Shown piece after piece: positions 6,776-11,458 of a stretch of 45,062 bases of DNA; position 1 is the first letter of the stretch, and each line of letters begins with the position of its first letter. Where the stretch lies: positions 1 through 45,062 of the forward strand of contig JAFIGG010000026.1 in assembly GCA_020831485.1 (NCBI GenBank). Reading direction: 5' to 3'. The stretch comes from Opitutales bacterium (GTDB lineage: Bacteria > Verrucomicrobiota > Verrucomicrobiia > Opitutales > Oceanipulchritudinaceae). The notes under the pieces are model-generated. The model did no database searches, was not told the origin of the DNA, and was given only the letters and a program-made list of their open reading frames with translations. The translations under genes were made by a program, and so were the position numbers.

Positions 6776-7678
6776 ATGCGCATACCATCCTTCTCCTACT
6801 CCAACTCGCTGATCAATCAGATGCACAAACTGAATGGCCAGCAAATCAAGGCGCAAACGCAACTGGCGACCGGCCAACGCATCTCCAGCGCCGAGGAGGA
6901 TCCCCGTGCAGCTGGGCGCGCGCTGAATACGCTAACGGAGAAGAGCCGTATCCAAGCGCAGAACACCAGCCTGAAGCACGCCAATACGATCGCGGAATTC
7001 ACCATGGCTTCCTACGAGCAGTTGAAGGTGCTCTCCAACGAATCCTCGCGCCTGGCCAATAATTCCGATGGACTGACCAGCAGTTCGGATTACCGTGCCC
7101 GTGCTCTACAAATCGATCAATTACTGGAGCAGAGTCTTCGTATTTTGAATACCAAACTGGGTGAGGACTATGTATTTGCAGGTGCCAACACAGCCGAAAG
7201 GCCCTACGTGGAGAGCCGGGACGGCGATGGCCGAATCATCAGCGTCGATTACACAGGAACATCCGATCCAAACCAGGATGTCAGTATTCGCATCGGCGAA
7301 GGGGCCAATATCGCGCCCTACTCCAAGGGCGCCATCAATGCGGAAATCGGCGAATGGGTGAACCATCTTGTAGCCCTTCGCGACGCGCTGGAAGCTGAGG
7401 ATCTGGATGCAGTAAATGCTCTGGCACCCGAAATGGAATCGGCCGACGAAACGATTTTGATCAACCTGGTTGAATTTGGCTCCATCCAGCAAAGCATGGA
7501 CATCACCCAGAAAATCAATACTGCCCGCTTCAATGAATTGGAACGCATGGCTTCCAGTGAACTGGACCTGGATATCGCCGAAAGCATTGTACGCCTGAAC
7601 CAAATGCAAACCGCCTACTCCGCCGCCTTGCAAAGCAGCAGCAGGATTCTCCAGCAGTCGATCCTCAATTACATCTGA
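6776..7678 (+). CDS. flgL: Flagellar hook-filament junction protein 3, FlgL
   Basis: Second junction adaptor, on which flagellin polymerises. The 300 residues are flagellin-like at both ends: N-terminal MRIPSFSYSNSLINQMHKLN with QTQLATGQRISSAEEDPRAA, and C-terminal ESIVRLNQMQTAYSAALQSS with SRILQQSILNYI. The length fits FlgL (about 300) rather than flagellin. The 37-base gap after flgK contains no strong signal. This is the last gene of the flagellar run, and the next gene is convergent. No flagellin, fliD or motAB gene is in the window, so filament and motor must be encoded elsewhere. Confidence 0.95.
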   Translation: MRIPSFSYSNSLINQMHKLNGQQIKAQTQLATGQRISSAEEDPRAAGRALNTLTEKSRIQAQNTSLKHANTIAEFTMASYEQLKVLSNESSRLANNSDGLTSSSDYRARALQIDQLLEQSLRILNTKLGEDYVFAGANTAERPYVESRDGDGRIISVDYTGTSDPNQDVSIRIGEGANIAPYSKGAINAEIGEWVNHLVALRDALEAEDLDAVNALAPEMESADETILINLVEFGSIQQSMDITQKINTARFNELERMASSELDLDIAESIVRLNQMQTAYSAALQSSSRILQQSILNYI

Positions 7679-7754
7679 GTTGAGCGATCGCCGGACGGGT
7701 GCAATCACACTTGGTAACAACCCAAACTCCAGTCCAATTCTTTTTCTTTCTCCG

Positions 7755-7847
7755 GGGATCAAGATCAAGATTATGAACCAAGATCAAGAATGGTGATGCC
7801 AGAAATCCTCCCTCTTGATCTTTTTCTTGGGTCTTGATCTCGATCTC
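7755..7847. repeat. Imperfect inverted repeat built of GATCAA hexamers
   Basis: The left arm (7755-7793) runs GATCAA, GATCAA, GATTAT, then CCAAGATCAAGAA. The right arm (7811-7847) carries the reverse complement: TCTTGATC, a T-rich stretch, TTCTTGGGTCTTGATC and CGATCTC. The arms pair over most of about 36 bases around an 18-base centre. The repeat lies between the convergent ends of flgL and the ankyrin gene, so a transcript from either side could fold here. Both arms look like degenerated simple-sequence DNA rather than a classical terminator, although a TTTTT run is present. Confidence 0.7.
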
Positions 7848-7859
7848 AAATCTCAGAGA

Positions 7860-8717
7860 TCACAGCTCATAATACCCCTCGGCTTTGAGGGCTTCGGCTT
7901 CCTCTCGAATCTCGTCGTTGAGATACCGGTTCCAGTCCGCATCCAGATAACCTTCATCGATCAGATAGTCCACAACCCGCATGTACCAACTGAACTCTTC
8001 ACTCCTCGGGTCATGCATCACAGCAATCCCGCGATGCCGGTCAGTCTCCAGTCTCTCTATTAGTGACGAAGGACGCGTATAGCGACTTCGATAAGGCTGG
8101 GCCGGATCGGCACCTTGCTGCAGTAGGTAGTAGATCATTTCGTATTCCCGTCCCAATCGAGCAAGTGCGGTCGGTGCCGGTTCCAGACGGAGATCCGCAC
8201 CTGATTCAACCAGAATTTTCACACTTTCAAAATGGCTGACATAGATTGCATAGTGAAGGGGCGCCCAATTGGCTTCTTCCGGTATTGCATCCGGATCGGC
8301 TCCGTGTTCCAAAGCCATTTTGAGGTAACGTGTATCTTTCAACATGGTAGCAAGCGACGTCACTGCAAGTGGGGTCCTATTCGGACGGTTTGCTGCAACA
8401 TCCGGAGAGGCACCTTGCTCCAGCAGGATGCGGAACCCATCCAAACTGCGCTTGGAAATGGCCCAAATGAGCGGGCGCATGCCCTCAGCGCCTTCTTTGT
8501 TCACATCCGCACCGTCCTCTATGGCCTGCAGTATCCGTGCCTCATCTCCACGGGCCACTGCCCGCGCCAGCTCCACCTGAACCGGATCCTCAAAATAATT
8601 CGGAGCCCGCATGAGCATCAGTGCCTGCCGGGCAGCAAAGCCGCCCACCGACTCACAAGAAACCTGTAGCAACGCAAACAGCAAGACCAGGTATTTGAGG
8701 TAATGATTTCCTTTCAT
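7860..8717 (-). CDS. Exported ankyrin-repeat protein, possible lipoprotein
   Basis: Function unknown; ankyrin repeats usually mediate protein contacts. I place the start at the ATG at 8717, because the upstream in-frame extension to 8810 has no signal sequence character. From 8717, MKGNHYLKYLVLLFALLQVSC is a signal peptide ending at Cys21; the lipobox is imperfect (Gln at -3). About residues 50-235 form five to six ankyrin-like units, with phrases such as ILQAIEDGADVNKEG, GFRILLEQGASPDVA, MALEHGADPDAIPE and SVKILVESGADLRLE. The C-terminus (DEIREEAEALKAEGYYEL) is acidic and helical. The 285-residue gene stands alone, convergent with flgL and flanked on both sides by repeat-rich noncoding DNA. 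Confidence 0.8.
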   Translation of the reverse strand: MKGNHYLKYLVLLFALLQVSCESVGGFAARQALMLMRAPNYFEDPVQVELARAVARGDEARILQAIEDGADVNKEGAEGMRPLIWAISKRSLDGFRILLEQGASPDVAANRPNRTPLAVTSLATMLKDTRYLKMALEHGADPDAIPEEANWAPLHYAIYVSHFESVKILVESGADLRLEPAPTALARLGREYEMIYYLLQQGADPAQPYRSRYTRPSSLIERLETDRHRGIAVMHDPRSEEFSWYMRVVDYLIDEGYLDADWNRYLNDEIREEAEALKAEGYYEL

Positions 8718-8938
8718 GGAGACATCCTGGAATAGTTGGAACTGGTGTGACGCCCAAGTGGCCCTCGCCAAGAGCTTCCACCCTGTTCGATGGTTGTGCC
8801 AAGGGCTCAAAATGGTGTCAACGAAGTTCCCGAAATATAGCTTATAAACCCCTACAAAATCGCCAAATCAGATTGGCATCAAGCATCCGGCCATCCGTCT
8901 CAATCCTGTCAAAAAACTAGCCGGACATCCGCTTCCAG

Positions 8939-8956
8939 ATCCTGTTGATCCTGTCC
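8939..8956. repeat. Two 9-base ATCCTGTTG/ATCCTGTCC units, copy A of a ~58-base duplicated element
   Basis: ATCCTGTTG at 8939-8947 is followed by ATCCTGTCC at 8948-8956. The next about 38 bases (AAA-T-CTGC ... GTAACC-AGGT) are matched again after copy B at 9172. A single degenerate unit, ATCCTGTCA, is at 8903-8911. The larger duplicated element here runs to about 8994. Confidence 0.75.
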
Positions 8957-8994
8957 AAATATCTGCCGCGCCCAAAGCTGCGTAACCAAGGTTC

Positions 8995-9030
8995 GTTCGA
9001 TTTCGATCCCGATTTCGATTTCGATTTCGA
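8995..9030. repeat. TTTCGA hexamer tandem repeat, six units
   Basis: Units are GTTCGA, TTTCGA, TCCCGA, TTTCGA, TTTCGA and TTTCGA. Four are perfect and two differ by one or two bases. It begins immediately at the end of copy A of the 9-mer element. Confidence 0.85.
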
Positions 9031-9068
9031 CACTTCTTCGCCGTCTTCAGATCCTTCGCCCCCGGAAA

Positions 9069-9098
9069 ATTAGTGTTAATTAGCGTCCATTAGTGGTT
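9069..9098. repeat. Decamer tandem repeat ATTAGTGTTA-type, three units
   Basis: Units are ATTAGTGTTA, ATTAGCGTCC and ATTAGTGGTT. They share ATTAG-G at the same phase. The array is followed by a TTTTAAAA run. Confidence 0.75.
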
Positions 9099-9171
9099 TT
9101 TAAAACTGGGTCCAAAGCTGACCTCGAGAATCGGTTGCCCAGGCGCCCTCGGGACGAGCGCGCCTACAGCT

Positions 9172-9198
9172 ATCCTGTCGATCCTGTTAATCCTGTCC
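9172..9198. repeat. Three 9-base ATCCTGTNN units, copy B of the duplicated element
   Basis: ATCCTGTCG, ATCCTGTTA and ATCCTGTCC lie end to end. The following bases to about 9233 (AAA-TTCTGC ... GAGTAACCGAGGTCC) match the bases after copy A with a few substitutions and one indel. The duplication is therefore longer than the 9-mers alone. Confidence 0.8.
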
Positions 9199-9283
9199 AA
9201 AATTCTGCGCGACTCATGCAGAGTAACCGAGGTCCAGCTATTCGGCCTAAAGGCCGGGCTCCAACCCACTAAACCAGCACTGC

Positions 9284-9311
9284 CTCACAGCTCACCGCCC
9301 ACAGCCCACAG
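9284..9311. repeat. Heptamer tandem repeat, four units
   Basis: CTCACAG, CTCACCG, CCCACAG and CCCACAG follow one another without gaps. Confidence 0.8.
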
Positions 9312-9400
9312 AATCCCCCGCGCATTGGCCTTCGCGCTCTTGTGGTGAAAAAAATCCTGAACCAACGCACTTCACTTTGTTTACGGATTAATAGTCCGCA

Positions 9401-11458
9401 TCAATACGAACGCGAGCTGAGGCTGTGGTAGTGCAGCTTCTCGTAGTGCTCCTTAGGGATCTCCCGAAGAAAACGGCTCGGTTCCATGTGCTGACTGCCG
9501 CCGCGGGTGTGATGGATCAGCGGAAAGCTCAGATACAGCTCATCCATTGCACGGGTAACGGCAACATAGAACAAGCGCCGCTCTTCTTCGACGTCACCGG
9601 TTTCAATGGTCCGCCGCAACGGAAACAGGTCCTCAGCGCATGAAAGCACAAACACTATCGGAAACTCCAGTCCCTTGGCCTGGTGGATCGTAGACATCCG
9701 CACCAAACCGCTTTCCAGCTCAACACCCTTGTCACCGGTTTCCGAAGTCATCAGGACCAGTTGTGCCAAAAACTCGCTGAGTGTCTCAAATCGGCTGGCA
9801 AAGGCCACTAGCGAATCCAAGTCTTCCTGCCGATCCTGCCAGTCTGGATAGACGTTCGGCAGAAAGTCCCGATACCATCCGTCCAAGGCCTGTGCAACCA
9901 ATGCAGAAGGGGCCGCCGCATCCTTATCACCCTTGCGCATTTGTTCCTGAATCTCCTGCAAGGTGGCGACCAGGGACAAATAGTCCTCCCGGGCATCCGC
10001 CGGCACCTTCGCGGCGACGCTGTCCTCATGCAGCACGTCAACCCAAGTCACATCCTTTCCAAGCTGAGGAGCCCCGAACAGGTCGCCTTCCGAACGCTCC
10101 GCTTCAGCCCGCCGTTTCTGATAGACCTTATCCGCAGCCAACAGGATCTTGCGAATTGTTACCGGGCCCACGCGGGGCAGCAGCCCAAGCAAGCGGTCGT
10201 AGCCGGACTGATCCTCCGGATTCGCGACGACCCGTAACTGGGCAACAAAGTCCTTAATGTGTGCCTGCTCAAAAAAGCGCACACCGCTGGTAATGACAAA
10301 TGGAACGCCCTGGCGCGCCAATTCCAGCTGAACATCCACCGCCTGGTAATGCGCCCGATACAGAATTGCAATCTGATCCAACGCGTAACCTTCGTCATAT
10401 AAGGCAGCAATCCGCGTCGCAATGAACAGCGCCTGCTCGTGAGAACTCATGACAGGAACCACCCAAGGCCGGCTGCGACTCGGTTTGTGTGGCAACAATT
10501 CTTTTTCGTATCCACTGCCCATTGGCTGGGCCTTCAGCACCGCATTGGCAAAGGTCAGGATCTCTGGCGAACTCCGGTAGTTGGTCAAAATCTTGTAGAC
10601 CTGCGTGCCCGGATGCCGTTCAGGAAAGCCGCGGATGTTCTCATAATTCGCGCCCCGCCAGGTGTAAATACACTGAGCGTCGTCCCCCACAGCCATGATG
10701 TTGTGGTGCGCTGCGATCCGATCCACGATCTCCGATTGAAGTGTATTCGTGTCCTGATACTCATCGACAAGCACCCAGCCAAACTGACGTTGAAAAGCTT
10801 CACGGACCTCTGCAACATCGCGCACCAATGTGAGCCAGTCTGTCAGGAGGTCATCATAGTCCGCCACCTGCTGTTCCCGCTTCGCTGTCTGATAAAGCTT
10901 CGCAAAGCCCTCAATCTTCTGCCTCAGCCCGGCATCCCAGGGAAAACGCTCGTCGGTCAGCTCCGACAATGGTTTCTGGGTGTTGCGCCCATAGCTGATT
11001 AGGTTGAGAAGGACCTTTGCTTTCGGATTTTCCTTATTCTTGAGAAACTGTTTGTCCGCTTCCTTGATGACTTTGGTCAAAAGGGACTCGGCGTCCGACT
11101 GATCCAGGATCGTGAAGCTCGGTTTCAGGCCAACGTGTTCACCGTAGCGGCGCAGCATGCGTCCACCGATGGAGTGAAACGTTCCACTCCAGCGCGGCAG
11201 CGGGCCCATGCCAATCAAGGCCCGTACCCGTTCGGTCATTTCCTTGGCGGCCTTATTGGTAAAGGTGAGCAGCAACATGGAATCCGGATGCACCCGTTTT
11301 ACCAGCAGCAGATAGGCCACTCGAAAGGTGAGGGTTCGCGTTTTTCCTGATCCCGCGCCGGCGAGCACCAGGGCCGGGCCGGCATCCGCGGTTACGGCAG
11401 CGTACTGTTCGTCGTTGAGTTCCCGACGAAAATCAATTGGTGACCAGTCCATATTCAT
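9401..11458 (-). CDS. UvrD/PcrA-type superfamily 1A DNA helicase
   Basis: ATP-dependent 3'-5' DNA helicase of the UvrD/Rep/PcrA family, acting in repair or replication-fork processing. The 685 residues carry an N-terminal Q-motif region (ELNDEQYAAV), Walker A GAGSGKT at 34-40, motif Ia LLLTFTNKAAKEM, motif II DEYQDTN at 232-238, motif III VGDDAQCIYTWRGA, motif IV YRSSPEILTFAN, motif V MSTIHQAKGLEFPIVFV and motif VI EEERRLFYVAVTRAMDELYL. The C-terminal Tudor-like tail of PcrA is missing, which makes a Rep-like or lineage-specific paralogue possible. Its ATG overlaps the proB stop by ATGA, so it is translationally coupled to proB. A second Met at 11452 is an alternative start. Confidence 0.93.
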   Translation of the reverse strand: MNMDWSPIDFRRELNDEQYAAVTADAGPALVLAGAGSGKTRTLTFRVAYLLLVKRVHPDSMLLLTFTNKAAKEMTERVRALIGMGPLPRWSGTFHSIGGRMLRRYGEHVGLKPSFTILDQSDAESLLTKVIKEADKQFLKNKENPKAKVLLNLISYGRNTQKPLSELTDERFPWDAGLRQKIEGFAKLYQTAKREQQVADYDDLLTDWLTLVRDVAEVREAFQRQFGWVLVDEYQDTNTLQSEIVDRIAAHHNIMAVGDDAQCIYTWRGANYENIRGFPERHPGTQVYKILTNYRSSPEILTFANAVLKAQPMGSGYEKELLPHKPSRSRPWVVPVMSSHEQALFIATRIAALYDEGYALDQIAILYRAHYQAVDVQLELARQGVPFVITSGVRFFEQAHIKDFVAQLRVVANPEDQSGYDRLLGLLPRVGPVTIRKILLAADKVYQKRRAEAERSEGDLFGAPQLGKDVTWVDVLHEDSVAAKVPADAREDYLSLVATLQEIQEQMRKGDKDAAAPSALVAQALDGWYRDFLPNVYPDWQDRQEDLDSLVAFASRFETLSEFLAQLVLMTSETGDKGVELESGLVRMSTIHQAKGLEFPIVFVLSCAEDLFPLRRTIETGDVEEERRLFYVAVTRAMDELYLSFPLIHHTRGGSQHMEPSRFLREIPKEHYEKLHYHSLSSRSY

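Follow-up and report, generated by a model that had tools for sequence, protein, structure and literature searches.

The intervening sequence (IVS) in the 23S rRNA gene of Coxiella burnetii is a 428-nt element with one S23 ORF, and its termini form a 28-bp stem (PMC4990558). S23 IVSs are described in that account as sporadic and thought to be horizontally acquired, and their function and origin are called unclear. Warrier et al. (2016; PMC4990558) reported excision of the Coxiella S23 element by RNase III in vitro. In CPR bacteria, S23 is found in 16S and 23S insertions alike (PMC11270868). S23 genes are also reported from cas loci, where cas4 or cas6 often accompanies them (PMC3936711).

Short iterated repeats are described from several groups. 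The STRRs of filamentous cyanobacteria are usually 7-bp, hairpin-capable repeats. They occur between hupS and hupL, and their function is given as not known (PMC2670836), in agreement with the preliminary description of this locus, which held that such motifs have no accepted function. The TAACTGA repeats of the Beggiatoaceae are abundant, short, direct and intergenic, and the author weighs a repeat-binding protein as the mobile part (PMC4679880). In Borg elements, which belong to methane-oxidizing archaea, short tandem direct repeats pervade the intergenic DNA (PMC9879509). In the open-licence literature we found no link of S23 or GxxExxY genes to iterated repeats.

The window is the whole stretch of DNA analyzed here, 45,062 nt from an Opitutales bacterium. 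Its longest gap separates an ankyrin-repeat gene from a UvrD/PcrA-like helicase gene (Table 1). The gap contains four tandem arrays found by Tandem Repeats Finder (TRF) and a two-unit 9-mer array that was read directly from the sequence and is absent from the TRF list. Dinucleotide shuffles of the gap (n = 500) gave a mean of 0.10 arrays and a maximum of 2; neither four arrays nor the observed total score was reached by any of the 500, which confirms that the arrays first described here are real. The accompanying statement described nearly all other gaps as short and free of arrays, but the next gap has an array of its own (7757-7789).

Table 1. Positions of features in and around the array-bearing gap of the window
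Feature	Positions	Strand	Details and basis
Ankyrin-repeat gene	7860-8717	-	One side of the gap; ankyrin Pfam hits
Intergenic gap	8718-9400		683 bp; mosaic of dispersed repeats; ORF model, own-genome BLAST
Dispersed repeat block with ATCCTGT units	8880-8992	+	Putative GxxExxY-type word; nhmmer, BLAST coverage
Two-unit 9-mer array ATCCTGTNN, end ATCCTGTCCAAA	8939-8956	+	Sequence; own-genome pattern count
Hexamer array TTTCGA (TRF: TTCGAT)	8996-9030	+	x5.8; TRF score 56
Decamer array	9069-9098	-	x2.8 (TRF 9068-9095); minus strand AACCACTAATGGACGCTAATTAACACTAAT
GTAG-tagged palindrome, REP-like	9141-9167	-	Tag at 9164-9167
Three-unit 9-mer array ATCCTGTNN, end ATCCTGTCCAAAA	9172-9198	+	TRF 9172-9197, x2.9, score 38
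Candidate S23-type arm: GGCCTAAAGGCC palindrome plus heptamer array	9234-9311	-	Palindrome at 9243-9256; alignment, TRF
Heptamer array CCCACAG	9284-9311	-	TRF 9286-9311, 7-mer x3.7
UvrD/PcrA-like helicase gene	9401-11458	-	Other side of the gap; named from motifs by eye
Miniature hairpin element, head-to-head GATCAA arms	7752-7848		Next gap of the window

Arrays are plentiful in the source genome, and this gap stands at the top end of its range. Twenty stretches (362 kb) were picked by contig number or from mid-contig, not for arrays. Their gaps (37 kb) contain 36 arrays, compared with 7, 5, 2, 10 and 5 in five shuffles, so arrays exceed the shuffled expectation that the preliminary description had named as its null. 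The coding sequence of the same stretches (324 kb) contains 86. Of the gaps in these stretches, 38 are at least 300 bp long; 3 of them have at least three arrays, and none has four. A larger sample gave 109 arrays against 11 in one shuffle, a figure that is biased by ten stretches selected for ATCCTGT.

An inverted partner within 250 nt is lacking for all four gap arrays; the 9-mer array has a direct partner. Among arrays with 6- to 12-bp units in the own-genome sample, 16 of 82 have an inverted partner and 7 a direct one. No ORF framed by inverted arms is present at the window locus, which has solo arms only. The region 7600-9500 has no Rfam match at E values up to 1. Phage records match neither the gap nor the GxxExxY protein, and a phage origin of the gap was set aside.

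Read against the comparisons below, the window arrays are probably what is left, as solo arms, of very small mobile elements. Such an element, when intact, would consist of a single gene of about 120 codons flanked by a pair of inverted arms in head-to-head orientation, each made up of a few direct iterations of a short word that is typical of the element's lineage. Two gene families appear to use this plan, GxxExxY with words mostly of 8-10 bp and S23 with words mostly of 7-8 bp. Permissive gaps like this one would gather one insertion after another; the genes would decay while the arms persisted. Of the three origins first proposed for the arrays (slippage products, protein-binding arrays or a mobile-DNA landing zone), the last comes nearest to this reading, and the earlier interpretation as a whole is partly supported.

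When the gap was compared by BLAST with 494 kb of the source genome, several dispersed families emerged, the heptamer region among them, with copy numbers that are not genome averages since ten stretches of the sample were picked for the 9-mer. The ATCCTGT block contains a single ATCCTGT unit near 8902-8909 and the two-unit array. It has 28 nhmmer matches in the sample, with itself and its second window copy counted, and all matches outside the window lie in the ten stretches picked for ATCCTGT. The second copy is partial (8938-8992 to 9180-9233, 80% over 55) and contains the three-unit 9-mer array. A 130-bp block (9039-9168) with the decamer array and the GTAG palindrome recurs on contig C51 at 91.5%. 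In the whole genome, ATCCTGTNNATCCTGT has 29 matches, compared with 0 for the reversed control. The decamer pattern, with one mismatch permitted, has 17 compared with 0. The arrays are both distinct and dispersed, as had been claimed.

The palindrome has a self-inverted match at 9141-9165 and short matches elsewhere in the genome, and the fold of 9130-9175 has a z of -2.3. The GTAG tag at the foot of a palindrome, by which GTAG REPs are recognized, was found here and at no other feature of the gap. The locus resembles the GTAG REP/RAYT systems of PMC3733652, as far as that source describes them, in having such a palindrome among its arrays, but the arrays themselves are not GTAG palindromes.

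Relatives of the UvrD-like helicase are present in 28 of 28 genomes drawn, none of them from the source's genus. The 700 nt downstream of uvrD were compared at 24 loci, the window's own included. At least three arrays occur only in the own locus and in L084, an order-level relative; eight other loci have one array each, and one of the 24 (L087, at a contig end) is probably misplaced. In this comparison of the same gap in relatives, which the preliminary description had proposed, array richness recurs in a single relative, and the words there are unlike the window's. This filling by different words suggests that the site is permissive to repeated insertion. The L084 gap also has a GTAG-like palindrome by eye.

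Two gene families were examined for inverted arms: GxxExxY (PF13366), which we take to be PD-(D/E)XK nuclease-like, and the four-helix-bundle family S23 (PF05635). The left flank was compared with the reverse complement of the right flank over 150 nt beyond the HMM match. A z above 4 over 60 shuffles was counted as a pass, and the loci were the best-scoring of longer lists. In the phylum and the own genome, 28 of the 31 best-scoring GxxExxY loci pass (32 loci, one cut). Outside the phylum, 17 of the 28 best-scoring pass and 11 fall short (30 loci); the 25 genomes concerned were reached through 9-mer loci, that is, chosen for holding the 9-mer. For S23, 19 of the 29 best-scoring loci pass and 10 fall short (30 loci). 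Passes include two loci from archaeal genomes (L381 and L383). The UvrD control gave 0 of 24, with one locus above all its own shuffles, and 1 of 68 neighboring ORFs in the tested loci passes. Passes in direct orientation numbered 7 for PF13366 in the phylum, 10 for PF13366 elsewhere, 4 for PF05635 and 0 each for UvrD and PF01797. The test scores inverted similarity and not iteration, and L348, for example, passes through a plain palindrome.

The best arm period is 8-10 bp in 39 of 45 GxxExxY arms and 7, 14 or 8 bp in 17 of 18 S23 arms. Self-match at a single period exceeds the 95% point of the shuffles in only 16/45 and in 14/18 arms, respectively, which makes the iteration strict for S23 and looser for GxxExxY. 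On plasmids, 9 of 11 S23 loci pass (11 of 21 records, all cyanobacterial), as does 1 of 6 GxxExxY loci (6 of 8 records), with five below the threshold. The words of the cyanobacterial S23 arms are about 7 bp by eye, and in this and in their inversion they resemble STRRs. The cited account of STRRs (PMC2670836) ties them to no gene, whereas the repeats described here resemble cassette arms.

The source genome contains two PF13366 genes, both on contig C8 and neither on the window's contig. The first has decamer arms on both sides, and the second retains one arm. The window decamer array matches the left arm (32 nt) of the first cassette at 80% and the right arm (31 nt) at 77%, over 30 positions each. 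Among the decamer matches elsewhere in the genome are a head-to-head pair without an ORF, on C29, and a pair on C38 that encloses 9-mer and other arrays, apparently nested. Both the window decamer and the 9-mer have the word and the outer end of an intact GxxExxY cassette. There is a strong case that the decamer array is a solo arm of a GxxExxY-type cassette. There is a good case that the 9-mer arrays are solo arms with another GxxExxY word, within a dispersed block.

Two S23 genes of the source genome score above the family cutoff (L425 and L426). L426 has inverted arms of the TGGAATG type with a GGCC palindrome at their ends (z 10.5). Its left arm aligns with window positions 9234-9288 (72.7% over 55; E 1e-5 with a 683-base subject), and its right arm with 9241-9279. 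The match is largely the common GGCC palindrome, and the words differ. The heptamer region can be read with moderate confidence as an S23-type arm. L425 lies between two GATCAA hairpin copies; it fails with 150-nt flanks (z -1.5) and passes at 250 nt only through the whole hairpin copies. The hexamer array matched no cassette. We suspect that it is S23-type on the sole ground of the 6-mer words around L425. The original remark that the four units are unrelated to each other therefore needs correction for the 9-mer and decamer, which would both be GxxExxY-type arms, and for the heptamer region with its resemblance to an S23-type arm.

The left arm is missing from the second GxxExxY copy of the source genome (L046, 13706-14128; also L334), and its 3' end runs, by eye, into an RHS-like gene. 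A 1.7-kb gap (L030, 7348-9057) has segments repeated about 450 and 580 bp apart that are composed of several of the array words. Many of the stretches rich in arrays are close to the ends of contigs, so the assembly may break there.

The miniature element in the next gap lies between a flagellar gene and the ankyrin gene and is complete. The array at 7757-7789 is its first arm. The inverted partner scores z 6.0, and the element folds at -38.4 kcal/mol (z -4.2). Its GATCAA word is also that of the repeats around L425. Terminal inverted repeats, which are characteristic of MITEs, are present in this element and absent from the four gap arrays. The likeness to MITEs is in the short ORF-less form with inverted ends, which is also seen in L323 of genome G166. 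Unlike MITEs, these elements have ends made of iterated words, and their full-length partner encodes no known transposase. Both miniature forms that lack an ORF and single arms occur with the same words as the cassettes.

The 9-mer word is widespread. At least 118 stretches with the triple pattern are present among 84,980 genomes. The matches listed include Methanoperedens- and ANME-2-labeled archaea, Verrucomicrobia, Planctomycetota, Chloroflexi, Acidobacteriota, proteobacteria and others, which bears out the preliminary statement that similar motifs occur in other phyla. Borg repeats are direct, recent and virtually absent from the host Methanoperedens in the cited account (PMC9879509), whereas the 9-mer occurs in Methanoperedens-labeled records. 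The first 80 loci contain 93 arrays. The base after the last unit is C in 83 of these, and C, then C, T or A, then A follows in 63. An inverted ACAGGAT lies within 150 nt upstream of 46 of the 93 arrays and downstream of 4. Some 9-mer arrays lie inside long ORFs (e.g., L149).

Orientation was scored for 358 ATCCTGT arrays at 200 loci, which partly overlap, so a few places are counted twice. Neighbors within 200 nt are head-to-head in 56 cases, tail-to-tail in 2 and in the same direction in 43. The 9-mer triple is present in 91 viral-contig stretches, of which 80 were pooled in this test; viral-contig stretches were pooled in the ORF test as well. Seven head-to-head pairs are 300-5000 nt apart. 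In L127 and L327 a GxxExxY gene fills the space between the arms (PF13366, E 1e-40 and 2.5e-42); the L127 ORF also matches TIGR04256. The pair in L031 has an interior without an ORF. The ORFs inside other long pairs (L137, L150, L253 and L329) have no family in common, and the arrays on both sides of a rhodanese gene in L042 are probably chance neighbors.

A profile built from other GxxExxY proteins matched only three ORFs in 209 9-mer loci, and every one touches an array. The S23 profile matched one, 578 nt from the closest array. The 9-mer flanks GxxExxY ORFs on both sides in L127, L207 and L327 and on the single side covered in L184. Among the matches listed, 9-mer arrays lie within about 100 nt of PF13366 matches on both sides in G058 and G146, and within the same distance in G094, G116, G124 and G152.

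These data bear on slippage, by which the arrays would be microsatellites of local and independent origin. Intergenic DNA tolerates slippage. The copy numbers of the arrays are low and variable, and the hexamer exceeds the other three arrays in regularity, as slippage would allow. However, the 9-mer arrays have a recurring end, and their word is common to archaea and many bacterial phyla. The two free bases differ between adjacent units, a point that is biased because the search pattern required the core. Inverted arms frame ORFs, and empty sites exist (see below). Slippage alone, as offered in the preliminary description, leaves the polarity, the recurring ends, the head-to-head second arm around an ORF and the cross-domain word unexplained, and we consider it highly improbable.

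The arrays could also be protein-binding or regulatory sites, such as operators or RNA stability hairpins, that do not derive from mobile DNA. Unit lengths are near one helical turn, and the hairpin forms fold well, both in the element of the next gap and in a whole cassette, whose fold (z -5.4) has a 29-bp panhandle helix. Such roles are discussed for TAACTGA repeats by MacGregor (2015; PMC4679880), and for STRRs the hoxW paper (PMC2670836) mentions transcript stability or translational coupling. The TAACTGA repeats differ from the present arrays in their word, in being mostly direct and in lying upstream of start codons, and the cited text notes no framed ORF. Against a regulatory role, the 69 of 93 arrays that lie outside ORFs with genes on both sides have no strong preference in gene-relative orientation (21, 17, 17 and 14). 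Presence is patchy as well. In the phylum, the two-unit pattern was found in 35 of 145 genomes and the reversed control in 6 of 145; the control had 23 matches, 18 of them from G043 alone. One and the same junction has different words in different relatives. A purely regulatory origin is very unlikely on this evidence.

Filled and empty sites are consistent with the reading of the arrays as remnants of mobile elements. A GxxExxY cassette in G058 lies at a junction where the genes abut in six relatives (G195, G055, G155, G107, G202 and G029). Its genus provided 13 relatives, five of which showed no such junction. In G198 and G194 the junction has different short iterated inserts, and G194 has an 80% identical copy of the cassette elsewhere on the contig. 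An S23 cassette in G107 lies between two sugar-nucleotide genes, named by eye. This junction is empty or short in G194, G202 and G198. In G196 it is occupied by a miniature element without an ORF and in G029 by a related S23 gene, and the words of both are similar to that of the G107 cassette. The S23 protein found there in G055 is clearly different, and so is its word. In G058, the one copy of two that was read contains ORF-less GxxExxY-type arms.

Nostoc plasmids provided a third case, a locus of three genes (A-B-C). S23 is present at A|B in L472, L503 and L504. The same site is empty in L465, L499, L500, L501 and L502 and has another small ORF in L505. At B|C only L465 has a cassette, one with another word, and the site is empty in seven others. 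Within the single strain ATCC 53789, filled and empty copies occur on three plasmids. The junctions fit short repeats (TTCTA or ATG) of the sort that a target-site duplication would leave, but TTCT is also in the arm word, and the ATG case is imperfect beyond 3 bp. Sites resolved to the base lie at or near stop or start codons of adjacent genes, which may reflect survivorship and not targeting. By sequence comparison, then, relatives differ in whether a cassette of either kind occupies a gene junction that is otherwise intact. The S23 ORF of L503 is annotated short (240 nt), and longer copies occur at the same junction; this cassette has possibly been caught decaying.

The arms vary with the protein. 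Arm similarity within one element is 0.66 for GxxExxY and 0.52 for S23, a figure that is partly by construction as the set was picked for inverted similarity; between elements it is 0.19 and 0.16. Protein identity correlates with arm similarity in Mantel tests (GxxExxY, r 0.48, n 41; S23, r 0.70, n 17; permutation p 0.0005 for both). Co-inheritance could produce this correlation. The GxxExxY copies of G058 and G194 have a pN of 0.08 and a pS of 0.78, values that point to purifying selection on this one pair. Free DNA would be scrambled at such divergence, so we infer that the arms are kept for use. The cassette protein, or something that travels with it, is likely the reader of the arms.

An unrelated transposase acting in trans, for example a RAYT/IS200-like one, might instead move the cassettes, with GxxExxY and S23 as passengers. 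This is a variant of the reading of the arrays as cassette remnants and is not exclusive with it. Neither S23 nor GxxExxY is a known transposase, and the source genome has four PF01797 (RAYT-like) matches, one of them (L053) beside a perfect palindrome. On the other hand, the arm words follow the cassette protein. The PF01797 flanks gave 0 of 3 with inverted arms (4 loci), although flanks based on gene models did show the L053 palindrome. RAYT as the mover is disfavored by the PF01797 result, and we regard movement in trans as rather unlikely. The L053 gene (10761-11243; PF01797 E 3e-4, just under the cutoff) sits between perfect 23-bp palindromes, as a REP system would predict.

The encoded protein, or a complex with it, may recognize its own arms as DNA or as folded RNA and may take part in movement. 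The arms would pair as a panhandle, in line with the 29-bp helix in the fold of one cassette, and this pairing would maintain the similarity of the two ends. By analogy with the S23 element of 23S rRNA, the panhandle may allow host RNase III to excise the element from transcripts. S23 structures have been solved (2gsc and 2rld), and a reference in PMC3936711 is titled as describing Xcc0516 as an assembly of five four-helix bundles. For GxxExxY, sequence search found no relative with a solved structure, and the structure model (pLDDT 47) was too poor for use.

The cassettes resemble the 23S rRNA IVS described in PMC4990558 in having an S23 ORF and complementary termini. They differ from it in location: the IVS lies inside rRNA genes, whereas the window gap and the plasmid loci, where annotated, lie between protein genes. 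They also have iterated arms with lineage-specific words, and GxxExxY uses the plan too. These comparisons raise a broader proposal that falls a little short of probable. Single-gene cassettes that lack a transposase may form a broad class of very small mobile elements in bacteria and archaea. Their mirrored arms would repeat an element-specific word, to be read by the encoded GxxExxY or S23 protein, possibly through RNA or a single-stranded panhandle. STRRs, rRNA intervening sequences and many intergenic repeats would then be its cassettes, miniatures and scars. The proposal would link a scattered set of short repeats that lack an explanation with two gene families that are common but poorly understood, and it bears on the long-open question of how S23 intervening sequences spread.

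An S23 gene that is found next to other genes may have been inserted there rather than being their partner. In plasmid loci L471 and L474, S23 lies between cas6 and cas4. The L471 gene has inverted arms (z 12), and the L474 gene fails the test. This suggests that S23 in these cas loci is an insertion and not a CRISPR partner. In a Sphingomonas plasmid or chromid (L480), a GxxExxY gene lies between fabD and fabG, 2 nt from fabG, and one of its arms appears to be inside the 3' end of the ORF.
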